This document shows, piece after piece, positions 5,226-48,448 of a stretch of 64,000 bases of DNA (within the stretch, counting starts at the first letter, position 1; the number at the start of each line of letters is the position of its first letter). Source of the DNA: Dysidea avara (taxonomy: Eukaryota > Porifera > Demospongiae > Dictyoceratida > Dysideidae). The stretch lies in assembly GCF_963678975.1 (NCBI RefSeq), contig NC_089272.1, positions 25,423,471 to 25,487,470 on the forward strand, given 5' to 3'. Under the pieces are notes generated by a model. It made no database searches. It worked only from the letters and a program-made list of their open reading frames with translations, and was not told the DNA's origin. A program made the position numbers and the translations under genes.

Positions 5226-6089
5226 GTCAAATTTGGGTGGCTGGCTCATGGACTATTTTGTGGGCCGCACTCTTTTTTTACAGTTTGGCTGTTTTGGTTT
5301 AGATCAAGACACACGATAGTGTGTCCGTGCGGCCCAAGAAGCCGGCGCGCCACACCGTGAGTATATTAACAGGAAGAAAGAAAACGCAATTTTCACACCT
5401 ATGTAGCTCTGTGATCCCTTATCCGATTGGAACCAAATTTTCTAGAGCCTAGATACCAAATTTGAAGAAAATTGCTCCAGCCATTTCCGAGATACAAGCG
5501 AACAAAATTTCATTTTAATTTCTTCGTTTTTTCTTTCTTCTTCATCTCCATTTCGTACACTTCGCAAAACTCGCCATAAAACACGAATGCGTGCTAGGAT
5601 TGGGCTGAAATTGGCACACTTAAAGGGCTCATTAAGGCGGATTTCCGTACCAACTTTGGTAGGAATCCGATGAACATTCAGAGTTATGACCGATTATTTG
5701 CGCAAAATAAGGTCGAAGGTCTGTCATGCCTACAGGGTAAACCCCTTGGAGGAATCAGTTGAAAATTGATATGTAGATGGAGCAACCATCGTAGGAGTGC
5801 CTTTTTGTGGTTTGAAAGGAATCGAGATAAAGACCATGGAGATATGACACAAAACCCAACCTGTGTCAAAATTACGCGATCAATTTTTATGAATAAAAAA
5901 ATTATTAATTTTCGTGTCTACCAGACAAACCGCTTAGAGCAATGAGCTGAAAATCTGTATGTAGCTGGAATAATCATCATAGAAAGTCCTTGCAGTAGTA
6001 CAGAAGAATCGGATTACAAATCACTGAGTTATGATTCGAAAGGCAACTACGTGCAGCAAATGCGAGATCGAGATACTCTAATAGAACAG

Positions 6090-9000
6090 TCACCCTAATA
6101 AAGCATTCAGTTGCATGTATAATTTACTCAGTTATATTACATTGCAAGTTATTCTGTAGGGAATTCAGCTACAAACAAGTCACCCTGTAGTCAGATCAGC
6201 TAGAAGAAGGTACCTAATAGAGAGTTCATCTACAAAGAAGCCATCATGTAGAGAGTTCAGCTCAAATAAATCACCCTTTAGAGAATTCAGCTACAAACAA
6301 ATTGCACTGTAGAGAGATCAGCTAGAAGAAGTTACCTTGTAGAGAGTTCAGTTACAAAGAAACAATCATGCAAAGAGTTTAGCTGCAAACAAATCACCCA
6401 GTAGAAAGTTCCGCTATGAACAGATCCACTATAGAGAGTTCAGTTAGAAACAAGTCATCCTGTAGAGAGATCAGCTAGAAGAAGTCACATTGTAGAGAGT
6501 TCAGTTACAAAGAAACAATCATGCAAAGAGTTTAGCTGCAAACAAATCACCCAGTAGAAAGTTCCGCTACACTGTAGAGAGTTCAGTTAGAAACAAGTCA
6601 TCCTGTAGAGAGATCAGCTAGAAGAAGTTACCTTGTAGAGAGTTTAGTTACAAAGAAACAATCATGCAAAGAGTTTAGCTGCAAACAAATCACCCAGTAG
6701 AAAGTTCCGCTATGAACAGATCACACTGTAGAGAGTTCAGTTAGAAACAAGTCATCCTGTAGAGAGATCAGCTAGAAGAAGTTACCTTGTAGAGAGTTTA
6801 GTTACAAAGAAACAATCATGCAAAGAGTTTAGCTGCAAACAAATCACCCAGTAGAAAGTTCCGCTATGAACAGATCACACTGTAAAGAGTTCAGTTAGAA
6901 ACAAGTGATTCTGTAGATAGATCAGCTAGAAGAAGTCACTTTGCAGAGAGTTCGGCTACAAAGAAACCACCATGTAAGAGAGTTCAGTTGCAAACAAACC
7001 ACTCTGTACAGACTTCAGCTACGAACAGATCACCCTGTACAGAGATCAGCTAGAAACAAGTCATCCTGTAGAGAGTTCAGCTAGAAGAAGTTACATTGTA
7101 GAGAGTTCAGCTACAAAGAAACTACCATGTAGAGAGTTCAGCAGCAAACAAATCGCGCTGTAGAGAGTTCAGCTACAAACAAATCACCCTGTAGAAAGAT
7201 CAGCTAGAAGAGGTCACCTTGTAGAGAGTTCAGCTACAAACAAATCACCCTGTAGAGGGTTCAGCTACAAACAAGTCATCCTGTAGAGAGTTCAGCTAGA
7301 AGAAGTTACATTGTAGAGAGTTCAGCTACAAAGAAACTACCATGTAGAGAGTTCAGCAGCAAACAAATTGCCCTGTAGAGAATTCAGCTACAGACAAATC
7401 ACCTTCTAGAAAGATCAGCTAGCAGAAGTTACCTTGTAGAGAGTTCAGCTACAAACAAATCACCCTGTAGAGAGTTCAGCTAGAAACAAGTCACCCTGTA
7501 GAGAGATCAGCTAGAAACAAGTCACCATGTAGAGAGTTCAGCTAGAAGTTACATTGTAGAGAGTTCAGCTACAAAGAAACTACCATGTAGAGAGTTCAGC
7601 TGCAAACAAATTGCCCTGTAGAGAATTCAGCTACAAACAAATCACCCTGTAGAGAGTTCAGCTAGAAACAAGTCACCCTGTAGAGAGTCCAGCTAGAAGA
7701 AGTTACATTGCAGAGAGTTCAGCTACAAAGAAACTACCATGTAGAGAGTTCAGCTGCAAACAAATTGACCTGTAGAGAATTCAGCTACAAACAAATCACC
7801 CTGTAGAGAGTTCAGCTAGAAACAAGTCACCCTGTAGAGAGTTCAGCTAGAAGAAGTTACATTGCAGAGAGTTCAGCTACAAAGAAACTACCATGTAGAG
7901 AGTTCAGCTGCAAACAAATTGCCCGGTAGAGAAGTCAGCTACAAACAAATCACCCTGTAGAAAGATCAGCTAGAAGAAGTTACCTTGTAGAGAATTCAGC
8001 TACAAACAAATCACCCTGTAGAGAGTTCAGCTAGAAACAAGTTACACTGTAGAGAGATCAGCTAGAAACAAGTCACCATGTAGAGAGTTCAGCTAGAAGA
8101 AGTTACATTGCAGAGAGTTCAGCTACAAAGAAACTACCATGTAGAGAGTTCAGCTGCAAACAAATCACCCTGTAGAGAGTTCAGCTAGAAACAAGTCACC
8201 CTGTAGAGAGTTCAGCTAGAAGAAGTTACATTGTAGAGAGTTCAGCTACAAAGAAACTACCATGTAGAGAGTTCAGCAGCAAACAAATTTCCCTGTAGAG
8301 AATTCAGCTACAGACAAATCACCTTCTAGAAAGATCAGCTAGAAGAAGTTACTTTGTAGAGAGTTCAGCTACAAACAAATCACCCTGTAGAGGGTTCAGC
8401 TAGAAACAAGTCACCCTGTAGAGAGATCAGCTAGAAACAAGTCACCATGTAGAGAGTTCAGCTAGAAGAAGTTACATTATAGAGAGTTCAGCTACAGAGA
8501 AACTACCATGTACAGAGTTCAGCTGCAAACAAATTTACCTGTAGAGAATTCAGCTACAAACAAATCACTCTGTAGAGAGTTCAGCTAGAAACAAGTCACC
8601 ATGTAGAGAGTTCAGCTAGAAGAAGTTACATTGTAGAGAGTTCAGCTACAAAGAAACTACCATGAACAGAGTTCAGCTGCAAATAAATTGCCCTGTAAAG
8701 AGATCAGCTAGAAGAAGTTACATTGTAGAGAGTTCAGCTACAAAGAAACCACCATGTAGAGAGTTCAGCTGCAAACAAATTGCCCTGTAGAGAATTCAGC
8801 TACAAACAAATCACCCTATAGAGAGTTCAGCTAGAAACAAGTCACCCTGTAGAGAGTTCAGCTAGAAGAAGTTACATTGTAGAGAGTTCAGCTACAAAAA
8901 AACTACCATGCAGAGAGTTCAGCTGCAAACAAATTGCCCGGTAGAGAAGTCAGCTACAAATCACCCTGTAGAAAGATCAGCTAGAAGAAGTTACCTTGTA

Positions 9001-9180
9001 GAGAATTCAGCTACAAACAAATCACCCTGTAGAGAGTTCAGCTAGAAACAAGTTACACTGTAGAGAGATCAGCTAGAAACAAGTCACCCTGTAGAGAGTT
9101 CAGCTACAAACAAGTCATCCGGTAGAGAGATCAGCTAGAAGGATCACCTTGCAGAGAGGTCAGCTACAAAGAAATCACCT
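6090..9180 (+). repeat. 30-31 bp satellite array with higher-order pattern
   Basis: About 3.1 kb of near-continuous repeats with the consensus start GTAGAGAGTTCAGCTACAAA, each 30 or 31 bp long. Variants differ after the first 16 bases: ACAAACAAATCACCCT, AGAAACAAGTCACCCT, AGAAGAAGTTACATT, ACAAAGAAACTACCAT and GCAAACAAATTGCCCT types. In 7550-8950 these alternate in a recurring order of five, giving a higher-order unit of about 154 bp. In 6400-6900 a different unit of similar length recurs, with GCAAAGAGTTTAGCTGC and GTAGAAAGTTCCGCT members. It is internal to the family S element. Confidence 0.9.
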
Positions 9181-9289
9181 TGCTTCATCTTTTCTTCTTC
9201 CAGTAGTAAAGAAAAAATGACAGGTTAAAAATCCCTAAAGCCGGCCATAGGCCGGCTTTGGGGTATACAAATACAAAAAGAAGTGAAAC

Positions 9290-9470
9290 CTAATCAAAAA
9301 CAGCCAAGCTGTAAAAAAAGGAGTGCGGCCCTTGAAAAGGCTATGGTGAAAAAAGATGTGAAATCCAAGGTGGCGGCCAAGAAATGGCTGTGATGGTAGG
9401 TTAATGGTAAAAATTTTAATAACGACAATTCAGGTGAATTTTGTGCCAAGACCAAGCGGCACCAAATTCA
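9290..9470 (+). repeat. Single arm of the 330 bp foldback
   Basis: CTAATCAAAAACAGCCAAGC to AATTCAGGTGAATTTTGTG matches the left arm of the full foldbacks at 17413, 27000, 33996 and 44465. The returning arm is absent here. Confidence 0.7.
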
Positions 9471-9736: not shown

Positions 9737-9772
9737 GTACTGCTCAAATGTAACATCACTTGATTGCAAGTA

Positions 9773-12218: not shown

Positions 12219-13817
12219 ATCAAGACACACAATAGTGTGTTGTGCAGTCCAAGAAGCTGGTGCACCACACCGTGGGTATATATTAACAAGAAGAAAGAAA
12301 ATGTCATTTTCACACCTTTACATCTCAGTGCCTAATCAGATTGAAACTAAATTTGCTGCAGAGTTGTCAGCTAGTTAGGGGAGTGCACACTCTAAATTTG
12401 AAGGAAATTACTCTAGCTACTTCCGAGATACGAGGGGCCAAAGTTTTGATGCTTTTCTTCTTTTTGCACACTTTGCAAAAATTGTTATAAAACGCCAAAC
12501 ACTATCCGATTACCTTGAAATTTGGCACATCTAAAGGGAGTCTAAAGGCAAATCTTAGTATCAAATTTGGCCCAAATCTGATGAATGGTTCAGGATTTAT
12601 TCACATAAAACACGATCAATTTGTTGTCATGCATGCAGGGTAAACCACTTCATGGAATGAGTTGAAAATGGGTTTGTGGATAGATCAACCATTATAGGAT
12701 AGTTTTTTGGCGGTTTGCAAGTAACCGAAATAAAGATCACGGAGATATAACTCGAAACCGAAGGTGCGTAACAATTGCATGAACGAGATTTGCGAAAAAA
12801 ATAATAACTTTCACGCCTACCAGGCAAACCGCTTAGAGTAATGAGCTGAAAATCAGCACGTAGCTGGAATAATCATCATTGAGAGTCCTTGCAGTAGTAC
12901 AGAAGAATCGGATTACAAACCACTAAATTATAATTTGAAAGCCAACTACGTGTAACAAAAATGCAAGATCAATAGAACAGTCACTCTAACAGCTACATTA
13001 ATAACTTACTCCATTATAGAATTCGGCAAGTTATTCTGTAGGGAGTTCAGCTACAAATAGTTAATCTTATAGACAGTTCAGTTACAAGAAAGTCACCATG
13101 TAGAGAGTTCAACTACAAATATATTGCTGTAGAGATTCAAAACATTACAAGTCACAGACTGAAGAGAGTTCAGCTAAAAACAAGGCACCCTTTAGAGATT
13201 TCAGCTACAAACAAGTCACTTTGTACAATGTTCAGCTACAAGTAAGTTACTCTGTAAAGAGTTCAGCTACAAACAAGTCACTTTGTAGAGAATTCTGCTA
13301 CAAAAAAGTCACTGCGTAGCGAGTTCAGCAACAACAACAAAAAAAAAACTACTCTGAAAAAGAGTTTAGCTATACAAACAAGTTACTTTACAGAGAGATC
13401 AGCTAGAAACAAGAGAGAGCTCAGTTACAAACAGATCACCCTGTAGAGAGTTCAGCTAGGAACAAGCCACCCTATAGAGAGATCAGCTACAAAGAAACTA
13501 CCCTGTAGAGAATTTAGCTACAAACAAATCACCCTGTAGAGAGATCAGCTCACTTTGTACAGAGTTCAGCTACAAACAAATTACCCAGTAGAGAGTTCAG
13601 CTAAAAACAAGTCACCCTGTAGAGAGATCAGCTAGAAATAAGTCACCTTGTAGATAGATCAGATAGAAGAAATCACCTTGTATAGAGTTCAGCTGAAAAT
13701 AAATCACCCTGTAGATATTTCAGCTATAAACAGATCACCCTGTAGAGAATTCAGCTACAAATAAGTCACCCAGTAGAGAGATCAGCTAGAAGAAATTACC
13801 TGTAGAGAGTTCAGCTA
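12219..13817 (+). mobile_element. Satellite-bearing element, family S, copy 2 (right end missing)
   Basis: It begins ATCAAGACACACAATAGTGTG, runs through the conserved core (about 12219-13010) and then a diverged satellite array (about 13020-13817) made of GAGTTCAGCTACAAACAAG-type repeats. The constant right end and foldback arm are absent; after 13817 the sequence changes to unrelated CCCTCCTTTTGC. It lies between inverted repeat arms, so it probably inserted in a foldback element. Confidence 0.7.
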
Positions 13818-14144
13818 CGCCCTCCTTTTGCTATCTCTTTGTGCCATTATATAGTCACACATCTTAAGATCGATTGTGGGATTAGGTGAGTAGTTTCTTT
13901 GACTGAAATGGAGCTGTTTTTAATACAGTGAGCTCTGTTTTAATAAGTTCTAGACATCTGTCTCGATGTTACATAACATGCACTAAGTAAACTGAACCAT
14001 TAGAAGCGAAGTGGTATTCAGGTGCGACTAATTTTATTCATGGATACAATTTATTCATGATTATTATAGTAAATACCTGGAAACAGCATTAAAACCATCA
14101 TTATCATGTGACACTTTGATATCCTGTGTCTCAATGTTACGTAC
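13818..14144. other. No gene recognised; TCGATTGTGGG motif at 13869
   Basis: A short spacer between the truncated S copy and the returning inverted arm. It holds the recurrent TCGATTGTGGG motif and nothing coding that I can support. Confidence 0.4.

Positions 14145-17191: not shown

Positions 17192-17222
<31 letters not shown>
17051..17222. repeat. TA, GATA and TATG microsatellite
   Basis: A TA run, three TAGATA units, then about 130 bp of uninterrupted TATG repeats adjoining the right end of the hAT-like element. Confidence 0.95.
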
Positions 17223-17224
17223 TT

Positions 17225-17412
17225 ACTGATAAAAATTAAAAGTACAGATGTGGTTAAAGTATTAAAAATCTCCTTTAAAAGTTTTTCTTGTGGTAAAGAA
17301 AAAAAAAGATCGATAAAGAAAAAAAAAGATTGATAAAGAAAAAAAAAGGTAGGTTAAAAAAGCCCCAAAGCCGGTCATAGGCTTTGGGGTATACAAAAAC
17401 AAAAGAAGTGAT
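17225..17412 (+). repeat. Isolated right end of family S
   Basis: AATTACTGATAAAAATTAAAAGTACA, then repeated GATAAAGAAAAAAAAAG, then CCCCAAAGCCGG and TTTGGGGTATACAAAAAC match the constant right end of S copies 1, 3 and 4. Left end, core and satellite are missing. It runs straight into a complete foldback. Confidence 0.65.
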
Positions 17413-17736
17413 ATCTAATCCAAAACAGCCAAGCTGTAAAAAAAGAGTATGGCCCAAAAAGGCTATGGTGAAAAAAGATGTGAAACCCAAGGTGGCAGCC
17501 ATGAAATGACTGTGATGGTAGGATAATGGTTAAAAATTAACAACGACAATTCAAGTTAATTTGGTGCTGCTTGGGTCTTGGCACCAAACTCACCTGAATT
17601 GTCGTTATTGAAACTTTTACTATTACCCTACCATCACAGCCATTTCTTGGCCACCATCTTTGATTTGACATCTTTTTTCACCATAGCCTTTTTTGGGGCC
17701 GCACTTTTTTTACAGCTTGGCTGTTTTGGATTAGAT
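17413..17736. repeat. Complete 330 bp foldback, copy 1
   Basis: Starts ATCTAATCCAAAACAGCC and ends with its complement GGCTGTTTTGGATTAGAT. The arms (about 155 bp each) pair almost throughout; the loop is the short GGTGCTGCTTGGGTCTTGG region. Internal landmarks are AGTATGGCCC, AAGATGTGAAACCC and ACGACAATTCA. No coding content. Confidence 0.8.
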
Positions 17737-18901: not shown

Positions 18902-18904
18902 TAA

Positions 18905-20990: not shown

Positions 20991-20999
20991 AATACTATC

Positions 21000-21450
21000 A
21001 TACAGTACGATAATACTGTATAGTAGGGACCACAAAGGAGTAGGCGTGGCCCACGAAATAACATCACCTAAAAACCAGCCTCATTTTCTCTCACGACGAT
21101 GAGGCAGTATTGGTTAGGCTCAAACAAGCTTTCAGATCAACTGGAAACGCTTTCAACAAGTTGCTACAGAATTTTAAAAATATATTATTTAATGGAATTT
21201 TCTACTGACTGAGTAAGTAAGTCACTGACTGATGCCTTCAGACAAGCGTAACTCGATAACGGCTAAAGCTATGGGCTTGATTTTATCACTGTTCGATGTC
21301 GCTTCTTCCCGAGAGGTGCCTTTTGGCATACCGCAGAATTTACAATGCATTCTTCAAGGACTTACCATTGTCTTCCTTTGTGTCCCATTCATCTGTTCGC
21401 TGACAGCAAAGTGTCGATTTGGCGATAGTGCATGCCCGGTAGCACATAAA
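21000..21450 (+). repeat. Dispersed repeat Q, copy 1
   Basis: Landmarks in order: TACAGTACGATAATACTGTA, GTAGGCGTGGCCCACGAAAT, GATGAGGCAGTATTGGTTAG, GCTTTCAACAAGTTGCTAC, CTGATGCCTTCAGACAAGCG, GAGGTGCCTTTTGGCATACC, ATTCTTCAAGGACTTACC. Same order at 59768 and 63105, and inverted at 41215-41400. The small open frames over it are not protein-like. Confidence 0.8.
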
Positions 21451-21925
21451 TGCCGGGCTTCTATTATTGCTGACCTCAAGGTTTCGTGAAACGTTAGAAT
21501 AACACGTGTACCAGTCTTTCGAACTGAATGCCAAGGTGAAGTTAACTTGACTGCTGTAGGCGTAGCACGTAGCAATACCATAGTATTTGTTTGACAACGT
21601 TGGAAAGACGTAAGTGAAGATATTTCACGATTATCCGCTTGTGTTTCTAAACACACACTTTGCTGTTATTGATACCATTAAATATTGTGCATTGGATGTT
21701 AGTTAAGCATCTTTTTGCATTTCTTACTGTTGTTTTGTCCGAGGTATTGTTCATTGAAGTCAGCTACACGACGATGCCTTCCAAGGATAGAGAAGGAGTA
21801 AGAGGAAGGAAGCACACAAATCCTATTACGACACCAATAAAGACACAATACTTTCAGACAGGAAGGATAAATATGACAAGGACAAAAGATCTGGGCGTCA
21901 CAATGAGGATTACTATAGAGATGTT

Positions 21926-22296
21926 GTGGCATTACGAATGAAGTCAGCTGAAAGCAGTAAAGTACACTATGAGAAAGATTTAACAACGTCTCATGCTGAA
22001 TCGGCTAAAACAACAAAAAAACACTATGAGAAAGATTTAGAAACTTCCTGTAGTGAATCGGCTAAAGCCAAAAAGAAGCATCATGAAAAGGATTTAGAAA
22101 CATCTCGTGCTGAATCGGCCAAAGCCAAAAAGAAGCATTATGAAAAGGATTTAGAAACTTCTTGTGCTAAATCAGTTAAAACCACGAAGAAGCACTATGA
22201 CAAAGATGTGGCAAGATCAAGAAGTAAAAGTAAATCTTCCACAAGCAAACATTATCTTGTGAATCTTGATGAACTTTGTAAAAGGGCAAAGCACAG
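21926..22296 (+). pseudogene. Helitron N-terminal exon with KHYEKD repeats
   Basis: Four to five repeats of about 22 residues, each with AES-A-K-x-x-KKHYEKDLETS, end in RSRSKSKSSTSKHYLVNLDELCKRAKHR. Such K-H-Y-x-x-D/N repeats are a known N-terminal feature of invertebrate Helitron proteins; their role is unknown, perhaps DNA binding. A frame upstream from 21774 (MPSKDREG) may be the true start but is frameshifted from this exon. The exon ends at a GT donor. Confidence 0.65.
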
Positions 22297-22370
22297 GTAT
22301 GATCTTCTGTGTGTGTGCCAGTGTGCCAGTGTTCTGTGTTATTTTGATTTACATCTTCCTTTTGTTGTAG
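22297..22370 (+). other. Putative 74 bp spliceosomal intron in the Helitron gene
   Basis: Begins GTATGATCTTC and ends CTTCCTTTTGTTGTAG, with a good polypyrimidine tract. Removing it joins KRAKH-R to YFLRPPSDPDV in frame (phase 2 junction). The unspliced frame runs to a stop within the intron-exon boundary, so splicing is the better explanation. Confidence 0.65.
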
Positions 22371-26999: not shown

Positions 27000-27328
27000 A
27001 TCTAATCCAAAACAGCCAAGCTGTAAAAAAAGAGTGTGGCCCTGAGAAAGGCTATGGTGAAAAGATGTGAAATCCAAGATGGCGGCCAAGAAATGGCTGT
27101 GATGGTAGGTTAATGGTAAAAATTTTAATAATGACAATTCAGGTGAATTTTGTGCCAATTGACCAAGCGGCACCAAAATTCACCTGAATTGTCGTTATTA
27201 AAATTTTTACCATTAACCTACTATCACAGCCATTTCTTGGCCGCCACCTTGGATTTCACATCTTTTTTCACCATAGCCTTTCTCAGGGCCGCACTCTTTT
27301 TTTACAGCTTGGCTGTTTTGGATTAGAT
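27000..27328. repeat. Complete 330 bp foldback, copy 2
   Basis: ATCTAATCCAAAACAGCC to GGCTGTTTTGGATTAGAT, arms of about 155 bp, loop CCAATTGACCAAGCGG. It forms the right end of S copy 3. Confidence 0.85.
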
Positions 27329-27331
27329 TGT

Positions 27332-28052: not shown

Positions 28053-28094
28053 GAAGTTAGCGAGGAAGGAGAACTAAAATGTATAGATGATAGC

Positions 28095-30494: not shown

Positions 30495-30518
30495 GGTTGC
30501 TTCCGAAATGATCTTCCT

Positions 30519-31323
30519 TTGTATGAAATTACTGAGCAAAGGAAGCCAACAATAAAAAGAAAGTTGGATGATGCCTTTAATGAAATAGCCCCACCAATGA
30601 AAAAATCTTCTAAAAGCAAGCCGACTAAGAGACCATTGTCTGATGATGCGATCAAGAGTCATTCAAAAAAGACTGCATGTATCCCATCAACCAGTTCATC
30701 ATCACATGGTGAGGAGTGTGTAATTACTGCTGTTCACAGGTCAGCAGTACCACAAACTGAATGGAAAGACTACAGGTACTACCCTATTGATACAGAGTGG
30801 CAAAGACAGAAGTGCACACAATTGGGATTACCTTTTGTGAAAGTGTTTAACAGGCAAGATGGAAGGCCAGATCTTGTATTGACTCGGCCTGATCTACGTT
30901 CAATAAAGAAAATCAGGTGACGGAAATTGTCTTTTCAGGGCATTATCATACATTATCACTGGCTCTGAAGACCAGCACTCGGGAATACAATGTGCAATTA
31001 CTGCCCACATGTTGTCTATACCTGAACTACTAACTGGTCTTGGGGCTGATGGTAGGGAGAACTACTTAGAATACTATAATGGTTGTTGAGCAGTACCTAG
31101 AATGGCTGATAGTGGAACATGGGGTACTGACTTTGAAATGTCAGTGCTTGCTCATATATTGCAAACAGTTGTCTACTCCTACAATGCAACTGGTGGGTAT
31201 TGGATTGCTTGCTTTCCAAACAGCATTGATAAAACCATCCCTGAGGATGTACATGTAAAATCTATGTATGTACATCATACAGGAAACCATTTTGATGTGG
31301 TCACATCTATACGAAGAAGATAA
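30519..31323 (+). pseudogene. Helitron C-terminal OTU-like cysteine protease domain
   Basis: After a basic linker (KRKLDDAFNEIAPPMKKSSK) the text PIDTEWQRQKCTQLGL leads to a shifted frame with GDGNCLFRALSYIITGSEDQ at about 30917, the Asp-Gly-Asn-Cys catalytic segment of OTU proteases. One stop near 31088 follows, then WGTDFEMSVLAHILQT and finally HTGNHFDVVTS with the catalytic His (31270-31310). OTU domains are known in some Helitron groups, where they may act on ubiquitin; the role in transposition is unclear. Confidence 0.8.
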
Positions 31324-31705
31324 TGATGGTATGCTTTAATTTACTCACTTCTTATCTGTTTATATATCCTTTCTAGGTTGTCAATCATTGATTATTAATG
31401 TGTTTTCAACATATGTGACCTGGTGAAGCATGTAATCAATTTGGTGGGGTGTTAGAAACACAATAGACTCCATATCCGTTGGATGCTCATCACATGTGTA
31501 ATATTTCTATGCAAAGCCAGTCACTCAACAACTACTGAGATAAGTAATCCTGTTCTGTTCATTGTTATTGAGACAGGAAACCAACTCTAAATGGTGACTG
31601 CCGTGGTAACATGGTTTTCTGTGTGGGCTTACAACTATTGTGTGTGATACAGTATGTATAGAGCTGTATTGTAGCTTCTGTTGACCAACTAATCAGTCTT
31701 TATTA
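31324..31705. other. Helitron 3' flank, no gene recognised
   Basis: AT-rich sequence after the OTU stop. It may contain the Helitron 3' end, but I cannot identify a hairpin plus CTRR. Confidence 0.35.
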
Positions 31706-31710
31706 ACATT

Positions 31711-32035
31711 TCAGTACTCAGCCAGTGGTGAGACATGTAGTCTAACTGGTAGTGCTGAAATTTGTGACAATCAACTCCACCAGTAGTAGGAGTGTGCCCT
31801 AACTGGGAGTATGTAACCACACAAAACTGGATTGTTCTCAGGTGTGCACGGCCAGTGGTGGAACATGTGGCCTAACTGGGAGCACTTGTATACCACATGT
31901 AAAAGGTACTCGGCCAATGGTAGGAATGTGGTCTAACTGGGAGTACATAACCACACAAAACTGAACTGTACTCAGGTGCAGTCTGGTGTGCTCGGCCAGT
32001 GGTGGGACATGTGGCCTAACTGGGAGCACTTATAT
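31711..32035. repeat. Minisatellite, about 65-75 bp unit, dimeric pattern
   Basis: Five units built around GGCCAGTGGTGGGACATGTG and CCTAACTGGGAGCAC. Units 2 and 4 share ACATAACCACACAAAACTG-like ends, and units 3 and 5 share GAGCACTT-TAT ends, so the array is made of dimers of about 140 bp. Confidence 0.8.
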
Positions 32036-33536
32036 GAAATGAAAAGGAGGATAAGCCTTGAGTGGCTTTTATTAGTTGGTCAACACAAGTTACAGGATCA
32101 GTTACAGCACATTATTTGTGTGTGCTGTAAATGCGGGAGTGTGGAGGGAGTGTACTAACTGACCACTAAAGTTATTATAAAGTGTGCTACCAGCTTATGT
32201 GATAAAATGTTTGTGTATAGTGGTCTCTATGTTTAGAAGACATACCTCCTTCTGTTCACTGTATAGTGTGTTACAAATAGAGCTAAGCATTCGCCAATTA
32301 TTAAAAGCTTTTGAACTGTTCTCAGGTGCAGTTCAGAGTGATCCCAGCTGTATAGACAGAAAAGGTGTGCAATTGTTGGGATCACCCATACATAAGCACA
32401 CCAAGTGACCTCTACTGTTAGTACATAAATTTAATGTAAGTTGTTGGCTTAAAGTGCTAGCAGCATAATTGCATTGGAAAAACTAGAGGTCACAAAGACA
32501 TGTGCACCTGACCTGCAATTCTAAACAAATGTACGTGCCAGCAGGTCAGTTAACTGCACGTAGAGGTCTGGCCTGTTCTCAGGTTATTCATTCAATGTAT
32601 GACTTACAAACGTGCACATGCTCTGCGTGTCATACAACTGCTCATGCAGTATAGACCTCCACCTGAGACTAGGATAAAACTGCTAATACAGCTCTATTTC
32701 TGTATACAGTGGTCAGCCAGTCAGTACTTACAGTGTTGTATGAGTGTGCAGCATGCACGGGAGTGTGGAGGGAGAAGACTGGCTGACTACTGGTTATTGC
32801 TTATTGCAATCTGTTCTCAGTAACTGTAGGTGGTAGAAGGTGTCAAAGTGGCAGAATTTGAGCAATCAGCTTTACCAATGTAAGGGAATTAAGCTTGCTT
32901 GCATTTATCTCAGTTCATTTAGGGCCATCATTGTGTGGACGGTCCATGTGATCATGGAAGTGACTGGAGGTCAACCTTTGAATCAAGGCATGGTCATCAC
33001 TTATGAAGGATAACCATTGTAGTTGTTCTTGGAAATTTGCTGTCGCAGATCTGTCAGCCAATAAGTGAGTAAGCAAAACAACTTATTGATGTTCATGTGT
33101 TAATCATGCTTATTTTCAGGTGTCAAGGCCATCATAATCCTGCAATGAACATGACTAAAACAACACATATACTATTATAACATGGTGTATTTTCCATTAC
33201 ACTAAAATAAAATACAATGTATGATATTTGCAACTAAAGTGCGTAAGCTACATAAAATGTCATGGTTATAAGTCACCAAATTAAATGATAGCCTGTGTAT
33301 ATAACTTTATCTTGAAATTTTAAGCCTGCAGATTATCAGTAAACATGTAGCTCATGTAAGGGTAAGGCAGAGGAATGACAGTGGAAAGTATAATAATGTT
33401 TAAATTTAAGTGTAGCCACTCTTAATGTATACAAGTACTGTATGTAAGGAATTTTTAACTAGAGTATAAGGGTCCGTAGTACATCAATAGCTAGCCAAAA
33501 AATTATTTTACAAAAAAAGTTAACAAACAAGTATAC
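32036..33536. other. No gene recognised; loosely repeated segments
   Basis: TGTTCTCAGGT recurs (about 32320, 32575, 32810) and GGAGTGTGGAGGGAG recurs (about 32140, 32760). This could be the edge of another repeat family. The small open frames show no protein pattern. Confidence 0.35.
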
Positions 33537-33830
33537 GAAAAAATTTGGAATTTTCAACTAGAGTAGGGACAATAGCACATCAATAAAAAGTACTGAAACA
33601 AGTTGGAATAGTCCATGATATTAAATCACAGTTAAACTATAAGAAGTGTTATATCCCTACTGTGCATTTCCGTTATGGTATCTTAAGCACAGTAGGGATA
33701 TACCACTTCTTATAGTTTTACTGTGATTTAATATCGTGGACTATTCCAACTTGTTTCAGTACTTTTTATTGATACGCTATGGTCCCTACTCTAGTTCAAA
33801 ATTCCAAATTTTTTCGTATACTTGTAATTT
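33537..33830. repeat. Foldback P, copy 1
   Basis: AATTTTCAACTAGAGTAGGG, ATCAATAAAAAGTACTGAAA, GATATTAAATCACAGT and GTTATATCCCTACTGTGC pair with their complements after the loop ATTTCCGTTATGGTATCTT. About 140 bp arms. Copies at 40575, 61185 and 63456. Confidence 0.85.
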
Positions 33831-33995: not shown

Positions 33996-34481
33996 TCTAA
34001 TCCAAAACAGCTAAGCTGTAAAAAAGAGTGCGGCCCTCAAAAAGGTTATAGTGAAAAAAGATGTGAAATCCAAGGTGGCAGCAAAGAAATGGCTATGATG
34101 GTAGGTTAATTGTAAAAATTTTAATAATGACAATTCAGGTGAATTTTGGTGCAACTTGGTCTTGGCACAAAATTCACCTGAATTGTTGTTATTAAAATTT
34201 TTACCATTAACCTACCTTCACAGCCATTTCTTGGCCGCCACCTTGGATTTCACATATTTTTTCACAATAGCTTTTATGAGGGCTGCACTCTTTTTTTACA
34301 GCTTGGCTGTTTTGGATTAATTTCACTTCTTTTTGTATTTGTATACCCCAAAGAGTCTATGGCTGGCTTTGGGGCTATTTAACACTACCTATTTTTCTTT
34401 ACTACAGGAAGAAGAAAAGATGAAGCAGATGTTAAATACTTTAAATATTTCTGATGTTATCAGTAAATGTACAAATTATAT
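33996..34481. repeat. Complete foldback plus inverted S right end
   Basis: 33996-34320 is foldback copy 3 (TCTAATCCAAAACAGCTAAG to GGCTGTTTTGGATTAA). It is followed by the constant S right end in reverse orientation (TTTCACTTCTTTTTGTATTT, CTTTACTACAGGAAGAAGAA, AGTAAATGTACAAATTATA) and then directly by the left end of S copy 4. Confidence 0.75.
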
Positions 34482-36460
34482 ATCAAGACACACGATAGTG
34501 TATCGTGCGGCCCAAGAAGCTGGCGCGTAACACCCGTGAGTATATTGACAGGAAGAAAGAAAATGCAATTTTCGCACCTCCGTAGCTCTGTGCTTCCTTG
34601 ATGAAACAAAAAGATAGTTGCTGTCGACATGTCCTCCAACGTCAGCACTCCACATTCCAAATTTGAGCGAAATCGCTTCACACATTCCCGAGATATGCGA
34701 CTTCAAAAATTGGCTTAGTTTCTTCGTTTTTTTTCTTCTTCTTATTTTTCTTCTTCTTGTCGCACACTTACAAAAACTGCTATAAAACGTGAACGCCATA
34801 TCCAATTGCCTTGAAATTTTGCACACAGAAGGGGGGTATAAAGGCGCATCTCGGTACAACTTTGGTTGGAATACGATAAACAGGCAAAGAGTTATGGGCT
34901 ATTATTCACGAAAAATAACACCAATATGTTGTCACGCCTACAGGGTAAACCACGTATGGGAAGAAGCTGAAAATCGGTGGGTGAATAGGATAACTATTGG
35001 ACCTCAAACCTTTTGTGGTTTGAAAGAAATCGAGCTAAAAACCAGGAAGATACAACAAAAAAACCAACAGTGTGTAACAATTATGCAATCAAGATTAGCT
35101 AATAAAAAAACGACTGCTTGCCACGTCTACCAGATAAACCGCTTGGGGTAATGCTTTAAAAATCGTTGTACAGATGGAGTAATCATCTTAGAAAGGCTCT
35201 TCAATGGTGTAGAAGAATCAAACTTAAAGCCATGGAGTTATAACACAAAATCCAACTTGGTGCAGCAAGTGCGAGATCGAGATACTCTAATAGAGCAGTC
35301 ATCCTAATAGAGCAGTCACCCTGAAGAGAATTTAAGAGATCAGCTAGAAACAAGTAATCTGTATACAGATCAGCTATAAACAAGTCGCCTTGTAGAGAGA
35401 TCAGCTACAAACAATTCACCCTGTAAAGAGATCAGCTAGAAGAAGTAACCTTGTAGGGAGTTCATGCAACTATGGAAAGAGATAGTTTAGCTAGAAGAAA
35501 TCGCCTTGTAGAGTTCAGCTACAAACAAATCTCCCTGTAGAGAGATCAGTTAGAAGAAGTTTCCTTGTAGAGAGTTCAACTTCAAACAAATCACTCTGTA
35601 GAAAGATCAGCTAGAAGAAGTCACCTTGTAGAGAGTTCAGTTACAAAGAAACCACCATATAGAGAACTCAGCTACAAACTAGTGACCTTGTAGAGACATC
35701 AGTTAGAAGAAGTTACCTTGTAGAGAGTTCAGCTACAAAGACACCATTCTGTAAAGAGCTCAGCTGCAAACAAATCGCCTGTACAGAATTCAGCTACAAA
35801 CAAATCTCCATGTAGAGAGATCAACTAGAAGAAATTACCTTGCAGAGAGTTCAGCTACAAAGAAGCCACCATGTAGAGAGTTCAGCTGCAAAGAAATCAC
35901 CCTGTATAAAATTCAGCCACAAACAAATTGCCCTATAGAAAGATCAGTTAGAAGAAGTTACCTTGTAGAGAGTTTAGCTACAAAGAAACCATTCTGTAAA
36001 GAGCTCAGATCACCTGTACAGAATTCAGCTACAAACAAATCACCCTGTAGAGAGATCAGCTAGAAGAAGTTACCTTGTACATCGTTCAGCTGCAAACAAT
36101 TCACCTGTAGAGAGAGCATCTAGAAGAAGTCACCTTATAGAGCGTTCAGTTACAAAGAAACCACCATGGAGATTTCTGTAATCAATATATGTATTATATA
36201 TATATAATTTGTACATTTACTGATAAAATATTTAAAGTACATCTACTTCATCTTTTCTTTTCCTGTGGTAAAGAAAAAAAGATAGGTTAAAAAAGTCCCA
36301 AAGCTGGCCATAGGCCGGCTTTGGGGTATACAAATACAAAAAGAAATGAAATCTAATCCAAAACAGCCAAGCTGTAAAAAAAGAGTGCGGCCGTCAAAAA
36401 GGCTATGGTGAAAAAAGATGTGAATGTGAAATCCAAGGTCGTGGCCAAGAAATGGCTGTG
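34482..36460 (+). mobile_element. Satellite-bearing element, family S, copy 4
   Basis: Starts ATCAAGACACACGATAGTG; core to about 35300, satellite about 35310-36170, right end about 36180-36350, one foldback arm 36351-36460. The core is very close to that of copy 3 (both share AGGAAGATA, CAATCAAGATTAGCTAATAA and ATCGAGATACTCTAATAGAG), so these two form a subfamily. No coding frame. Confidence 0.75.
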
Positions 36461-39285: not shown

Positions 39286-39289
39286 TTGT

Positions 39290-39830
39290 AAAGGTAATTA
39301 CAAGTCACCCTGCAGAGGGTTCAGCTAAGTTACAAGTCATGTTGTAAAGAGTTCAGCTACATTACAAGTTGCCCTGCAGGTATATAGAGAGTGCAGCTAT
39401 GTTACAAGTTATACTTTGGAGGGTTCAGCTATGTTACTAGTTACTGTGTAGACAGTCCAGTTACAATTTAAGTTACCTTGTAGGAAGTTCTACTCTAAAT
39501 CAAAAGTCACCCATGTAGAGTTCAACTACAATACAAACCATCCTATAAAACCTTTAGAGGGTTTAGCTACAAACAAATCCCCCTTTTAGAGGATTTAATT
39601 ATGTTCAGTCAAATTACAAATATCTGTGTAGACTGTTCAACTATAGTTTACAAGTTACTTGGTAGAAGCCTCAGCTTGGTTACAAGTCACATTGTAGAGA
39701 GTTTAACTATGTTACAAGTCATCCTGTAGAGAATTCAGCTTCAATACAAGCCAACCTGTAAAGTTCAGTAACATTACAAGTCACCATGTAGAGTTCAAAC
39801 TACAAAGAAACCATCCCGTTAGGTATATAG
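39290..39830 (+). repeat. Degenerate satellite related to S
   Basis: Irregular units of about 35 bp with AGAGTTCAGCTA and GTTACAAGTCACCCTG; the TTACAAGT insertion distinguishes them from the monomers inside S copies. It looks like an old or ancestral form. Confidence 0.65.
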
Positions 39831-40043
39831 TTTGCAAATCAATACACAACAAAGAGACACATGTAGTTCTTCTATTCTCTCTTCCCCCTGTAGGAAAGAA
39901 AAAGACAAACAAAAAGAAAGCCTCAAAGCTGGTCTACAGAAACGTATGGAACTGCAAAGAGTTTATTTATTTTTAATACTTTCCAGACCTCCATTTTGGA
40001 GTACATACGCACAGATACATACAAAAGAAGTATACATACAAGT

Positions 40044-40260: not shown

Positions 40261-40574
40261 TAGAGAATTCATTACGCAAAATTAAAAAAACAACAACAAC
40301 AACATAATACACTTGGACATTCTTGTCTACATTCCAAAGACATCCAGCCAAGTGCTTTCAACATCCCTGTAACACTAGATGTAATGCCATAATCACTAGT
40401 CAAAAACCTTGCAGCTCTACGCTGCACTGATTCAATCAGATTAACTTAGTTATATCTATACCAAAACAGCTGAATTGTAAAGTATTCAGCCTTCCGAAAA
40501 ACCATGCCGAAAAAGATGCAAAATCTATACAAGAATGGCTGTGATGGCAGGTCAATAGCAAGGTTTTTACAAGT

Positions 40575-41400
40575 ACACAGAAATATATGGAGTTTTCAAC
40601 TAGTGTAGGGACTATAGCACATCGATAAAAAGTACTGAAAAAAGCTGGAGTAGTGCACGATATTAAATCACAGTAAAACAATAAGATGTGTCATATCCCT
40701 ACTGTGCATCTCCATTATGGTATCTTGAGCACAGTAGGGATATAACACTTCTTATTGTTTTACTGTGATTTAATATCATGCACTACTCCAGCTTGTTTCA
40801 GTACTTTTTATCAATGTGCTATGGTCCCTACTCTAGTTGAAAATTTCAAATTTTTTCTGTGTATATACTTGTATTGTTAACTTTTTTTATGACTGGTGAA
40901 CCCATGCATCTGAAATGGCACCACACACCCCAATTATCATCTGAAAAGTGAAGTGTCCATTATGCTTCATTGTCAGCCATGTTCAACCAGTTACACAGCA
41001 GTTCGAATCAAGAACTGTTTGAAAAGCACCTCTGCAATCAACGCATACTGAAAGAAAGAAATGGTGCTGCACATCCCAGTTGTATCAATTATCGTCTGAA
41101 AGTGAAGTATCAATTACGCTTCGCTGTCGGCTATGTTTAACCCGATACACAGCAGTACGAAACAAGAACTGTTCGAAGAGCACCTCTACTATCAAAATAG
41201 CTACTATGACAAATACGGACGATTTCCATTACGAAGGGAAGCCATCATGTGCTATCGCCACATCGACACTTTTTGCTGTCAGCAAAGATGAAAGGGACAC
41301 AAAGGAGGACACTAGTAAGTCCATGAAGAATACATTGTATGTTCTGCGGTATGCCAAAAGGCACCTGTTGTGCTGAATCAATGTCGAACAGTGAAAAAAA
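40575..41400 (-). mobile_element. Composite repeat P-L-L-Q, inverted copy
   Basis: From left: foldback P copy 2 (40575-40870), two direct units with LINE 3'-end like sequence (40915-41055 and 41060-41210; TTACACAGCAGTTCGAATCA, CAAGAACTGTTTGAAAAGC), then repeat Q in reverse (41215-41400). Read in reverse, the order is the same as at 59768-61455. Confidence 0.7.
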
Positions 41401-41572
41401 TCAAGCCCGTAGCCTTACACTGCGTTCACATTAGCACGGTAGCACGGTTCAGTTCGACTCGGTTCGGTACGGCCCGGTATTGCCTCTGTTCACACTATGC
41501 AGTCTCGCTCGCTAAGTCATCTGGTTTCCATAAGCGCACAATTAAATATTAATTAATTTACTTACTAAAACT

Positions 41573-44464: not shown

Positions 44465-44800
44465 ATCTAATCAAAAACAGCCAAGCTGTAAAAAAAGGTG
44501 CGGCCCCCATAAAGGCCATGGTGAAAAAAGATGTGAAAAAAGATGTGAAATCCAAGATGGCGGCCAAGAAATGGCTGTGATGGTAGGTTAATGGTTACAT
44601 TTTAATAACAACAATTCAGGTGAATTTGGTGCCAAGACCAAGCGGCACAAAATTCACCTGAATTTCCGTTATTAAAATGTAACCATTAACCTACCATCAC
44701 AGCCATTTCTTGGCCGCTATCTTGGATTTCACATCTTTTTTCACCATGGCCTTTATGGAAGCCGCACCTTTTTTTACAGCTTGGCTGTTTTTGATTAGAT
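44465..44800. repeat. Complete 330 bp foldback, copy 4
   Basis: ATCTAATCAAAAACAGCC to GGCTGTTTTTGATTAGAT, with CGACAATTCA replaced by CAACAATTCA on one arm. It is continuous with the inverted right end of S copy 5. Confidence 0.85.
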
Positions 44801-47800
44801 ATCACTTCTTTTTGTATTTGTATACTGCAAAGCCGGACTATGGCTGGCTTTGGGGCTTTTTAACCCATGTGTTTTTTTCTTTACCACAGGAAGAAGAAAA
44901 GAACTTAAAGAAGAATTTTAGTACTTCAATTATTTTTGATTTTATTAGTAATTATACAAATTATATACATATATTTATTACATGCTCATTATTCCCCACA
45001 GGATTTTTTTTGCAGCTGATCTCTCTACTGGGTGACTTGAAATGTAGCTGAACTATATACAGGATGGTTCCTTTGTAGCTGAACTCTCTGTAACAGGTGA
45101 TTTGTTTGCAGCTAAACTCTCTACATGGTGGTGTCTTTGTAGCTGAACTCTCTATAAGGTGACTTCGTCTAGCTGAACTCTCTACAGGGTGATTTTTTTG
45201 TAGCTGAACTCTCTGCAGGGTGATTTGTTTGCAGCTGAACTCTCTACATGATGGTTTCTTTGTAGCTGAACTCTCGACAAGGTTACTTCGTCCAGTTGAT
45301 CTCTCTACAGGGTGATTTGTTTCTAGCTGAACTCTCTACAGGTGAATTGCTTGCAGCTAAACTCTCTACATGGTGGTTTCTTTGTAGCTGAACTCTCTAC
45401 AAGGTAACTTCTTCTCTACAGGGTGATTTGTTGTAGTTGAATTCTCTACAAGGTGGTTTGTATGAGGCTGAACTCTCTACATGGCGGTTTCTTTGTAGCT
45501 GAACTCTCTACAGAGTGATTTGTTTGCAGCTGAACTCTCTACATGATGGTTTCTTTGTAACTAAACACTCTACAAGGTGACTTCTTCTAGCTGATCTTTC
45601 TACAGGGTAAATTGTTGTAGCTGAACTATCTACAAGGTAACTTCTTCTAGCTGATCTCTATACAGGGTGATTTGTTTGTAGTTGAATTCTGTACAGGTGG
45701 TTTCTTTGTAGCTGAACTCTGTACATGATGGTTTCTTTGTAGCTAAACTCTTTACAAGGTGACTTCTTCTAGCTGAACTCTCTACAGGGTAATTTCTTTG
45801 TAGCTGAACTCTCTATATGATGGTTTCTTTGTAAATGAACTCTCTACAAGGTGAATTCTTCTACCTGATCTCTCTACAGGATGATTTGTTTGTAACTGAA
45901 CTCTGTACAAGTGCATTTTTGTGGGTGATCTCACTGCAGGTTGATTTGTTTGTAGCTGAACTCACTAAAGGGTGATTTTGCTTGTAGCTGAACTCCTTGC
46001 ATTGTATCTAGTTTCTAGCTGATCTCTCTACAGGGTGATTTGTTTGTAGCTGATCTCTCTACAAGTTGATTTGTGTGTAGCTGATCTTTCTACTGGTTGA
46101 TTTGTTTGTAGCCGATCTCTCTACAGGGTAATTTGTTTGTAGCTGAACTCTGTACAAGGTGCTTTTTTGTAGGTGATCTCACTGCAGGTTGATTTGTTTG
46201 TAGCTGAACTCACTAAAGGGTGATTTGCTTGTAGCTGAACTCCTTACATTGTGTCCAGTTTCTAGCTGATCTATCTACAGAGTGATTTGTTTGTAGCTGA
46301 ACTCTCTATAAGGTGATTTATTTGTAGCTGAACTCCTTACATTGTGTGTAGTTTCTAGCTGATCTCTCTACAGGGTGATTTGTTTGTAATTGATCTCTCT
46401 ACAAGTTGATTTGTGTGTAGCTGATCTCTCTGCAGGTTGATTTGTTTGTAGCCGATCTCTCTATAGGGTAATTTGTTTGTAGCTGAACTCTCTATAAGGT
46501 GATATGTTTGTAGTTGATCTCTCTGCAGGTTGATTTGTTTTAGCTGATCTCTCTGCAGGTTGATTTGTTTGTAGCCGATCTCTCTACAGGGCAATTTGTT
46601 TGTAGCTGATCTCTCTACAGGGTGATTTTTTTGTAGCTGACCTCTCTTCAGGGTGATTTGTTTCTAGCTGATCTCTCTAAAGGGTGATTTTTTGTAGCTG
46701 ACCTCTCTTCAGGGTGATTTGTTTCTAGCTGATTGCTCTACAGGTTGATTTGTTTGTAGATGAACTCTCTACAGGATAATTTGCTTGTAGCTGAACTCCT
46801 TACTTTGTGTCTAGTTTGTAGCTAATCTCTCTACAGGGTGATTTGTTTGTAGCTGAACTCCTTACATTGTGTGTAGTTTCTAGCTGATCTCTCTACAGGG
46901 TGATTTGTTTGTAGCTGATCTCTCTACAAGTTGATTTGTGTGTATATAGCTGATCTCTCTGCAGGTTGATTTGTTTGTAGCCGATCTCTCTACAGGTAAT
47001 CTGTTTGTAGCTGAACTCTCTATAAGGTGATTTGTTTGTAGCTGATCTCTCTGCAGGTTGATTTGTTTTAGCTGAACTCTCTACAGGGTGATTGCTTGTA
47101 GCTGAACTCCTTACATTGTGTCTAGTTTCTAACTGATGTCTCTACAGGGTGATTTTTTGTAGCTGAACTCTCTTCAGGGTGATTTGTTTCTAGCTGATCT
47201 CTCTGCAGGTAGATTTGTGTTAATTTGTTCATTGCTGATCGCTCTAAAGGTAATTGATTTGTTGCAGTTGAACACCCTGCAAAGTGTTTTGTTTGTAGCT
47301 GATCACTCTAAAGGGTAATTTGTTTGTAGCTGAACTCTCTCCACAGTGACTTGTGTGTAGCTGAATTCTGTGTAACTGAATTCTCTAGAGAGTGACTTAA
47401 TTGTAGCTGAATTCTCTACACAGTGCATGACTTGTTTATAGCTGAACTTTCTTCAGTGTGACTTGTAATGTTCTGAATCTCTATAGTGGTATATTTGCTT
47501 AACTCTCCACATGGTGACTCTTCTTGCTGAACTGTCTATAAGATTAACTGTTTGCAGCTGAACTCCCTACAGAATAACTTGTGATGTAATAAAATTCTAT
47601 AATGGAGTAAATAAATTAGCCGAATGCTCTATTAGGGTGACTGTTCTATTAGAGTATCTCGATCTCGCATTTGCTACACGGAGTTGGCTTTCGAATCATA
47701 ACTCAGTGGTTTGTAATCCGATTCTTCTGTACTACTGCAATGACTTTCTATGAAGATTATTCCAGCTATACAACGATTTTCAGCTCATTGCTCTAAGCGG

Positions 47801-48448
47801 TTTGCCTAGTAGGCATGAAAACTAATACTTTTTTATTCATGAAAATCAATCGCGTAACTGTGACACAGGTTGGGTTTTGTGTCATATCTCCGTGGTCTTT
47901 ATCTCGATTCCTTTCAAACCACCAAAAGGCACTCCTACGATGGTTACTCCATCTACATAGCAATTTTCAACTCATTTCATGAAGCGGTTTACCCTGTAGG
48001 CGTGACAACAAATCGATCTTGTTTTACGCGAATAATCGACCATAACTCCTGAACCATTCATCGGATTTGTACCAAATTTGATGCTAGGATTTGCCTTTGG
48101 ACTCCCTTTCTGTGTGCCAAATTTCAAGGCGATCGAAGTACACGTTTGCTTGTTATAGCAATTTTTGCAAGTGTGCGAAAAGACGAAGAAGAAGAAAACA
48201 ACGAAGAAAAAAAAAAACGAAACTTTGGCAGCTTGTATCTCAGAAATGGCTGGAGCGATTTCCTTCAAATTTGGAATGTAGACTCCCTTGGCTGGCGGGC
48301 AACTGTGTAGCAAATTTGGTTCCAATCAGATAAGTGATCACCGAGATACAAAGGTGTGAAAATGACGTTTTCGTTCTTCCTGTCAATATACTCATGGTGT
48401 GGCGCGCCGGCTTCTTGGGCCGCACGACACACTACCGTGTGTCTTGAT
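44801..48448 (-). mobile_element. Satellite-bearing element, family S, copy 5 (inverted)
   Basis: Reverse orientation: right end 44801-45000 (TTGTATTTGTATACTGCAAA, CTTTACCACAGGAAGAAG), satellite 45005-47630, core about 47630-48420, and the left end finishing CACACTACCGTGTGTCTTGAT at 48448. With the foldback it spans 44465-48448. Two internal satellite subfamilies occur: CTTCTTCTAGCTGATC-type up to about 45900 and GATCTCTCTGCAGGTTGATT-type after it. Confidence 0.8.
45005..47630 (-). repeat. 30-31 bp satellite array of S copy 5
   Basis: Complement of the GAGAGTTCAGCTACAAACAA monomers. A segment of several hundred bases around 46000-46330 is repeated at about 46790-47100 (TGTGTCTAGTTTCTAGCTGA, TTGATTTGTGTGTAGCTGAT). 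A frame across 46355-46594 is only satellite. Confidence 0.85.

Follow-up and report, generated by a model that had tools for sequence, protein, structure and literature searches.

Rolling-circle transposons are already known to disperse satellite DNA in oysters. Indeed, the Cg_HINE elements of Crassostrea gigas are non-autonomous, rolling-circle and dispersed; they carry a satellite-like array in their middle, inverted repeats at both ends and a 3′ palindrome, lack a target site duplication (TSD), and could not be tied to an autonomous element (PMC7492417; this and the other published systems are described from excerpts of the cited papers). Here, we describe an element of similar layout, family S, in the sponge Dysidea avara. 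It was found in a stretch of 64,000 nucleotides (contig NC_089272.1, positions 25,423,471 to 25,487,470 of the forward strand), which we call the window and whose positions are used below. We interpret S as a non-autonomous Helitron-type (rolling-circle) transposon, with a probability of roughly 0.87. While S shares the above traits with Cg_HINE, the latter has TT-rich targets and an inverted repeat nested with its 5′ pair, whereas S sits in A^T dinucleotides and ends in a palindrome of ~326 bp. Moreover, Cg_HINE arrays are made of ~165-bp monomers, 3.62 on average, as opposed to 31-bp monomers in S, with 33-138 of them per copy (PMC7492417).

Other described systems share parts of this plan. 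Helraiser, the canonical bat Helitron, has a 5′ TC, an A^T target, an HUH Rep and a helicase, head-to-tail circles and a 3′ hairpin terminator, but this hairpin is short, the 3′ end is CTAG, and the excerpt mentions no 5′ hairpin, subterminal inverted repeat (subTIR) or satellite (PMC4778049). The proto-Helentron of Phytophthora infestans inserts into A^T without TSD, has no endonuclease and ends in CTAG like element A described below; it differs by a 5′ TT, and no giant palindrome, terminal hairpin or satellite is mentioned in the excerpt (PMC4067079). Helentrons and DINE-1 elements have subTIRs, a 5′ inverted-repeat hairpin, a 3′ stem-loop and central repeats, and OTU protease genes are found in Helentrons; these elements differ from S by TT insertion, an endonuclease fused to the helicase and a subTIR placed 2-4 nt from the 5′ end (PMC4067079). 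Finally, FoHeli1/2, Helitron2 elements from Fusarium, begin with TC, form hairpins at their 5′ and 3′ ends and carry an inverted repeat located ~20-51 bp before the 3′ end; tandem insertions and joined-end amplicons are also described. In contrast to S, they end in ATTTT, their 5′ hairpin includes the inverted repeat, and the excerpt mentions neither giant palindrome nor satellite (PMC5148889).

A first-pass annotation had proposed that the window holds five copies of a mobile, satellite-carrying element. We found these five copies as well as isolated parts of S (a slash marks an element boundary):

5304..9470, plus strand: S copy 1; core 5304-6110, satellite 6154-9179, right block 9181-9286, palindrome from 9287, cut at ~9470
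5308..5325, plus strand: 5′ terminal hairpin of copy 1, with a 7-bp stem and a GATA loop, 4 bases past the TC start (from folding and covariation between families)
5327..5335, plus strand: 5′ subTIR GTGCGGCCC of copy 1; its inverse lies ~35-45 bases from the 3′ end in copies 3 and 5
5253..5303, plus strand: relic (~50 bp) of a terminal-palindrome end that abuts copy 1 on its left, forming the tail-to-head junction TTTAGA/TCAAG
12220..13818, plus strand: S copy 2; core 12220-12992, satellite 13027-13818, without right block and palindrome
24475..27327, plus strand: S copy 3, complete; core to 25285, satellite to ~26853, right block 26874-26998, palindrome 26999-27327
34483..36460, plus strand: S copy 4; core to 35318, satellite 35335-36172, right block 36204-36349, palindrome cut at 36460
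44466..48447, minus strand: S copy 5, complete, inverted; core 48447-47621, satellite to 45005, right block 44964-44802, palindrome 44800-44466
17219..17735, plus strand: S 3′ part alone (right block and palindrome), behind a TATG microsatellite, without core and satellite
33996..34479, minus strand: S 3′ part alone, inverted, adjoining copy 4 upstream, without core and satellite
39296..39934, plus strand: old relic of S in which a diverged ~32-bp satellite precedes the right block (E 5.7e-7), without palindrome

The shared left end ATCAAGACACAC is found exactly where it had been reported, at 5303, 12219, 24474 and 34482 on the plus strand and at 48448 on the minus strand, with an A directly before the TC in 5/5. 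This boundary is sharp: similarity between copies begins exactly at the end, and the upstream flanks are unrelated. S starts with TCAAGACACAC... and ends with ...TTAGA. Its core of ~0.82 kb can be aligned in 5/5 window copies with 65-90% identity (90% between copies 3 and 4) and is followed by about 0.8-3 kb of a 30-31 bp satellite, as had been described. Beyond the satellite come a right block with a GGCC hairpin and a palindrome of ~330 bp; the latter is whole in copies 3 and 5 (2.85 and 3.98 kb long, ending at 27327 and 44466), cut short in copies 1 (~9470) and 4 (36460), and absent from copy 2, which breaks off inside the satellite. Since the old relic retains both satellite and right block, these two parts belong together. 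The five copies contain no frame of at least 150 aa, stop to stop, in line with the non-coding nature ascribed to S; shorter frames occur in the part for which they were listed, 18000-34480.

We then searched the genome (550.8 Mb, 108 contigs). The exact 32-bp 5′ end of S occurs 6,314 times (3,220 + 3,094), against 0 for the reversed control. With the left 301 bp as query, 2,901 first-look candidates were obtained, 40 of them were scored and listed, and the 20 best-scoring of the 39 rows outside the window were examined. In 19/20, core, 31-bp satellite, a right block of ~110 bp and a terminal palindrome of ~326 bp follow each other in this order, some arrays being interrupted. These complete copies, 3.19-5.57 kb in length (median 4.03 kb, n=19) and scattered across contigs, have ends that do align at ATCAAGACACAC and read A/TCAA...TTAGA/T in 19/19. 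The sample is biased to one subfamily, since the 5′ loop is GATA, as in copy 1, in 18/19 copies, whereas most of the listed exact 5′-end places have GGTA. By extrapolation from this biased sample, and supposing that every exact 5′ end marks a copy of the sampled median length, S would total ~25 Mb, or 4-5% of the genome. Two of the exact 5′ ends, at G000 C1:4878982 and 4879037, are 55 bp apart in the same direction, and one of them is possibly truncated just past its start.

Such a number of copies could in principle reflect segmental duplication, and two genomic copies, L012 and L014, do have their flanks in common. However, all other flank pairs differ, which gives 18 distinct pairs, and 18 independent sites, for the 19 copies; the flanks of the window copies are likewise unrelated, and an exact empty site was found. 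Segmental duplication is thus refuted as a general account of S copies, and we give it practically no weight. The empty site concerns copy 3, which sits within the gene of a Helitron, H (see below). When joined at A^T, the window flanks of this copy align gap-free across the junction to uninterrupted Helitron genes at two loci among the 47 matches of the Rep search, L032 (92%) and L037 (86%; L052 is the same place), and the inserted unit corresponds exactly to S from its core through the outer end of the palindrome. The table rows of L031, L033 and L034, considered as rows without displayed alignments, also span this junction. An insertion into AT^T, inferred from the reading frame of H, was discarded: the paralogues show A^T without gap, and a 2-base indel relative to the window lies just upstream. 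For genomic copy L015, the joined flanks read open over the joint and, besides their own two halves, match one other place over the junction (bases 6-159 of 160, 69%), which accords weakly with an empty site. Copy L018, bordered by inverted satellite on the right and by an inverted right block on the left, seems to sit inside another S. In 16/19 genomic copies the longest flank repeat is 2-4 bp. The copies lie in A^T without convincing target duplication. The view of S as a mobile satellite carrier is strongly upheld by its common ends in 19/19 complete copies at 18 independent sites, the exact empty site and its many copies, dispersed over contigs.

The right end of S had initially been placed at the GGCC hairpin, supposedly kept in four copies. 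This hairpin is exact in copies 1 and 4 only, deleted in copy 3 and degenerate in copy 5. Moreover, because 19 copies end at the outer end of the palindrome, the right end of S lies ~350-380 bp beyond the hairpin, which we rejected as a terminus. We likewise rejected the idea that right block and palindrome form a separate element merely adjoining S, on the basis of the relic, the 19 complete copies and the empty site. A variant of this idea holds that S originally consisted of core and satellite, and that the palindrome is an independent foldback miniature inverted-repeat transposable element inserted near the end of an S ancestor. It would fit the two window copies of right block and palindrome without core and satellite, as well as copy 2 and the relic at 39296, which are devoid of palindrome. 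We nonetheless hold it to be very unlikely: the unit missing from the empty site runs exactly from the core to the outer palindrome end, 19/19 complete copies terminate there, and H and a further element, A, also end in giant palindromes of other sequence located at their termini. The palindrome could still have been captured in a remote ancestor.

Terminal palindromes were seen in 21 copies of S, in H and in A (389 bp); their sequences differ between families and all reach the terminus. In the S set, 11 private changes are common to both arms, against 0.13 expected, while mean arm identity is 0.967 within copies and 0.961-0.964 between copies, and some differences between inner and outer arms are fixed. 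This near-equal identity and the fixed differences rule out a palindrome formed anew at each jump. The private changes found in both arms, together with the fixed inner/outer differences, rather argue for inherited palindromes with some arm-to-arm conversion. Among the titles and abstract openings consulted, outside subscription journals, we found no Helitrons with a terminal palindrome several hundred bases long.

The tail of S is also found joined to its head. By a 28-base match, exact tail-to-head junctions of the TTAGA form occur 67 times in the genome and 0 times in the control; the junction of copy 1 is a variant that is not part of the 67. Fewer than two would be expected by chance, a rough estimate based on 6,314 copies, ~52 million AT sites guessed from the window composition and both arms as targets. 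Together with the palindromes cut short in copies 1 and 4, these junctions fit a 5′ hairpin that would mark the nick site and a palindrome that would act as terminator, with deletion or re-insertion at old tails as alternatives. Instead of circles or concatemers, the junctions may reflect ordinary tandem duplication or repeated insertion into the A^T provided by an old tail. Indeed, the 3′ end of S itself supplies the A/T, the 67 junctions are known by a 28-base match and copy 1 has only a tail relic of ~50 bp. Set against the 67 exact junctions and the fewer than two expected by this rough estimate, such an origin has, in our opinion, somewhat less than an even chance.

Two Rep-helicase elements have the plan of S without its sequence: a 5′ hairpin with a GRTA loop, a subTIR and a giant terminal palindrome. 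The first, H, lies in the window together with its relatives:

20998..33824, plus strand: Helitron H, decayed, split by S copy 3; A/TC, hairpin and AGTAGGGACCA ... palindrome ... CTTG/T
23545..23940, plus strand: DUF6570 domain of H (E 3.1e-9)
27517..27747, plus strand: part of the Helitron_like_N domain of H (E 2.7e-8)
27801..28052, plus strand: Rep region of H with an HYH motif read in translation (REP_ORF2-G2P, E 7.7e-4, 20.1 bits, below the curated cut-off of 27.8)
28878..29852, plus strand: PIF1-like helicase of H (Pif1_2B 29800-30225; UvrD_C_2 30237-30494, below cut-off)
30907..31323, plus strand: OTU-like region of H in two pieces (E 0.039 and 0.0022, both below the curated cut-off)
33527..33824, plus strand: terminal palindrome of H
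40570..41417, minus strand: n41, H relative, 5′ truncated, approximate start; palindrome ending CTTG/T
59766..61468, plus strand: n59, non-coding H relative; 5′ end with covarying hairpin, G before TC, palindrome ending CTTG/T
63099..63714, plus strand: n63, short H relative with an approximate end; A before TC

The helicase of H matches the Helraiser chain 7lcc (E 1.7e-6), and its Rep fragment gave no match in the PDB. The H palindrome terminates in CTTG/T in four copies, and the H 5′ end (TC and hairpin) recurs in two non-coding relatives, with an A before TC in H and n63 and a G in n59. Three places, at G000 C4:21414114, C8:9719448 and C8:31226235, match a 173-aa segment of H with 44-45% identity within open frames of 2,095, 2,798 and 2,769 aa, and are predicted to be further Helitron families.

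Element A is ~11 kb long, and its ends are defined by the anatomy of one copy; a second copy, at L035 on C3, is 99.9% identical over 3.5 kb. The 5′ end, A/TCATGTACCACGGTAGTGGTACA at L060:123, is a match to the 5′ signature, and the first long frame begins 1.1 kb downstream of it; this signature had been fixed from S and H ends before L060, chosen for its Rep frame, was fetched. A carries an open frame of 1,822 aa with DUF6570, Helitron_like_N, PIF1 and OTU domains, a tandem array of its own (53 bp x 26 copies) and a palindrome of 389 bp, whose arms are 96% identical, ending in CTAG/T. The palindrome contains the inverse of the 5′ AATAGGGATCA (no shuffle control). In H and A alike, Helitron_like_N scores above and the Rep model below cut-off. 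No endonuclease domain was detected in the scanned pieces of H or in the two long frames of A. Between the array and the palindrome of A (L060 9616-10000, L061 1-860), a stretch resembles, by visual inspection, a short intron-bearing gene (L061, about 270-720), which may have been captured or play an accessory role.

The first-pass annotation had noted a 7-bp 5′ stem in S; by folding, this holds for copies 1, 3 and 5, whereas the stem has 6 bp in copy 2 and is damaged in copy 4, which folds otherwise. The signature TCA-N6-AC[AG][AG]TA[AG]T has 9 matches in the window (5 S, 3 H and 1 other), a single one in L060, and 25 in the 273,301 letters of L010-L061, namely 22 S, A and 2 in L028. The last two, at 3755 (plus) and 6786 (minus), are A-flanked perfect hairpins, one of an S variant with the compensated stem GACTCAC/GTGAGTC and one of a new family (ATTAAGTAC/GTACTTAAT). 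Covariation was assessed on nine 5′ ends from five families or variants, gap-free over 24 bases, the 7-pair stem giving 63 cells; copy 5 (identical to copy 3) and n63 (an extra stem base) were omitted, and the stem definition was taken from S, which somewhat favours this stem. In this set, 96.8% of cells pair, 18 cells differ in both partners and covariation scores 0.821, each value being reached in 0/500 shuffles, and slid versions of the stem pair in 13-48% of cells. As to the subTIR, it occupies 5′ positions 24-32 of the tested stretch in S, after the hairpin (copies 3 and 5), and its score was reached in 0/500 shuffles for H, hence beyond chance, and in 7/500 for n63, a moderate result.

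Altogether, S is strongly supported as a mobile, satellite-carrying, rolling-circle element. Its ends, the A^T empty site, the lack of a convincing TSD, copy number, dispersal, the plan common to two Rep-helicase elements and hairpin covariation are directly seen. S has the broad features of Helitrons (5′ TC, A^T insertion, no target duplication). Helitron2 elements are marked by an asymmetric terminal inverted repeat and hairpins at both termini; S does have the two hairpins, but its inverted repeat lies outside the 5′ one. Several points weigh against this interpretation. First, the canonical 3′ CTRR is absent, as the first-pass annotation had remarked: S ends in TTAGA and H in CTTG, while A ends in CTAG/T; the canonical palindrome of 16-20 nt located ~11 nt before the 3′ end is also absent in S, where the ~326-bp palindrome reaches the terminus instead. 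Second, a Rep-helicase element bearing the ends of S, which the first-pass annotation had suggested looking for, was not found; A, the one examined to both ends, has no match to the core, right-block and palindrome models of S. The gene of H is broken, n59 has a G before TC, and one of the 20 examined S copies (L022) is truncated. Third, flank repeats reach 5 bp in L016, 6 bp in L019 and 10 bp in L021, the latter two copies lying within TA microsatellites. Finally, of the five measures of covariation, two give weak values (pairs in which both sides changed, 111/500 shuffles; further pair types, 14/500), and TC followed by some 6-bp hairpin occurs at 52 window sites. As such hairpins are common, a hairpin alone proves little, and it is the loop, register and covariation that carry the argument. 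Past the signature, the 5′ ends of S align convincingly with those of the H group only in the case of n59 (0, 3 and 7 of 1000 shuffles; 50-494/1000 for H and n63), and the subTIR of S exceeds chance moderately (score reached in 9 and 16 of 500 shuffles), that of n59 is weak (73/500) and that of A is without control.

Alternatively, S could be a HINE derived from a Helentron, like those of oysters and Drosophila, and be mobilised by an endonuclease-bearing Helentron; the first-pass annotation had likened its plan to that of such elements, without taking the affiliation as proven. S is non-coding, has central tandem repeats, a Helentron/HINE feature, as well as subTIRs, a 5′ inverted-repeat pair, a 3′ palindrome and no TSD, and is in these respects close to Cg_HINE (PMC7492417). 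However, we consider this affiliation very unlikely. Helentron-type insertion is into TT, and S is found in A^T in 19/19 copies and at the empty site. The Helentron subTIR, 2-4 nt from the 5′ end and nested with an inverted repeat, with its inverse 38-60 bp from the 3′ end, is not the layout of S, whose inverted repeat comes after the hairpin and not inside it. Likewise, no endonuclease domain was seen in the pieces of H and the frames of A scanned above, and the ~326-bp palindrome contrasts with the 5-10 bp reported for mite HINE families in the excerpt (PMC4067079). The exact S left-end and satellite patterns were absent from viral and prokaryote contigs and the palindrome pattern from viral contigs, and no related Helitron was found in viral contigs, where the sole locus (L001) appears to carry phage-like ORFs.

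Uninterrupted genomic S arrays measure 1.80-4.25 kb (median 2.74 kb, n=16), with a monomer spacing of 30-31 in 91%. The satellite had been thought much longer than in known elements; this is true of the mean but not of the range, as oyster arrays can reach 29.3 monomers, in a cluster whose monomers measure 166 bp, or ~4.9 kb by multiplication (PMC7492417). For 60% of 278 window monomers the closest relative lies in the same array, compared with 23.5% (highest 31%) for shuffled labels. Copy 1 displays a five-unit period, as identity is 0.77 at lag 1 but 0.83 at lag 5. Monomer order is not shared between copies 1 and 5, while copy 2 gives +0.61 with copy 5 and -0.58 with copy 1. Copies 3 and 4 have a common left edge and partial order (Spearman 0.48 and 0.44) yet differ in scored monomers (46 and 24), so that arrays seem to be inherited at their edges while changing length inside. 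Degenerate 17-bp units, CTAATAGAGCAGTCACC, are found at the array edge of these two copies; they resemble the 31-mer minus 14 bases, which hints at an origin of the array from the element's own sequence.

Two other features of the window are worth mentioning. An inverted repeat at 42584-44422 (1.85 kb, 95% self-identity) stops ~45 bp from the right end of copy 5; it may represent a further palindromic element or a fold-back of the assembly. At 53885-59361, successive retrotransposon-like frames carry DUF1759 and a Pao-type Peptidase_A17.

In the circles of Helraiser, TC is linked to CTAG, the 3′ hairpin serving as end signal (PMC4778049). By analogy, we can propose the following scheme for S. 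A Rep-helicase of the H/A type, acting in trans, would nick S at A/TC beside the short hairpin, which would mark the nick site through a stem that varies among families and a conserved GRTA loop. A single strand would be peeled off, probably via a circle, and copying would stop at the ~330-bp terminal palindrome ending in TTAGA. The strand would then enter an A^T dinucleotide without target duplication, and the 31-bp array, flanked by the core and the right block, would travel along, changing length in cis.

Terminal hairpins act as fold-back primers in some single-stranded DNA replicons. More tentatively, and with the odds rather against it, S, H and A may form a separate Helitron lineage, in which a GRTA-loop origin hairpin at a fixed distance from the nick is read as a structure by Rep, the 300-390 bp palindrome is the terminator and perhaps a fold-back primer for the second strand, and a family satellite (31 bp in S, 53 bp in A) is a standing part. 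If so, satellite birth and dispersal would be built into the transposon. Compared with what is known from oysters, and as far as the consulted titles and abstract openings show, the giant terminal palindrome in three families, the covarying GRTA hairpin and the array-bearing Rep-helicase element of the same plan look new. Here, a satellite is tied to one rolling-circle family whose ends are precisely defined and whose exact 5′ end recurs thousands of times, the array itself being seen in 19/20 examined copies and in the window. Unlike in the oyster case, two Rep-helicase elements with the plan of S, one with an open frame of 1,822 aa, are present in the same genome. The covarying hairpin and the giant palindrome provide testable predictions on how Helitrons recognise their origin and terminate.

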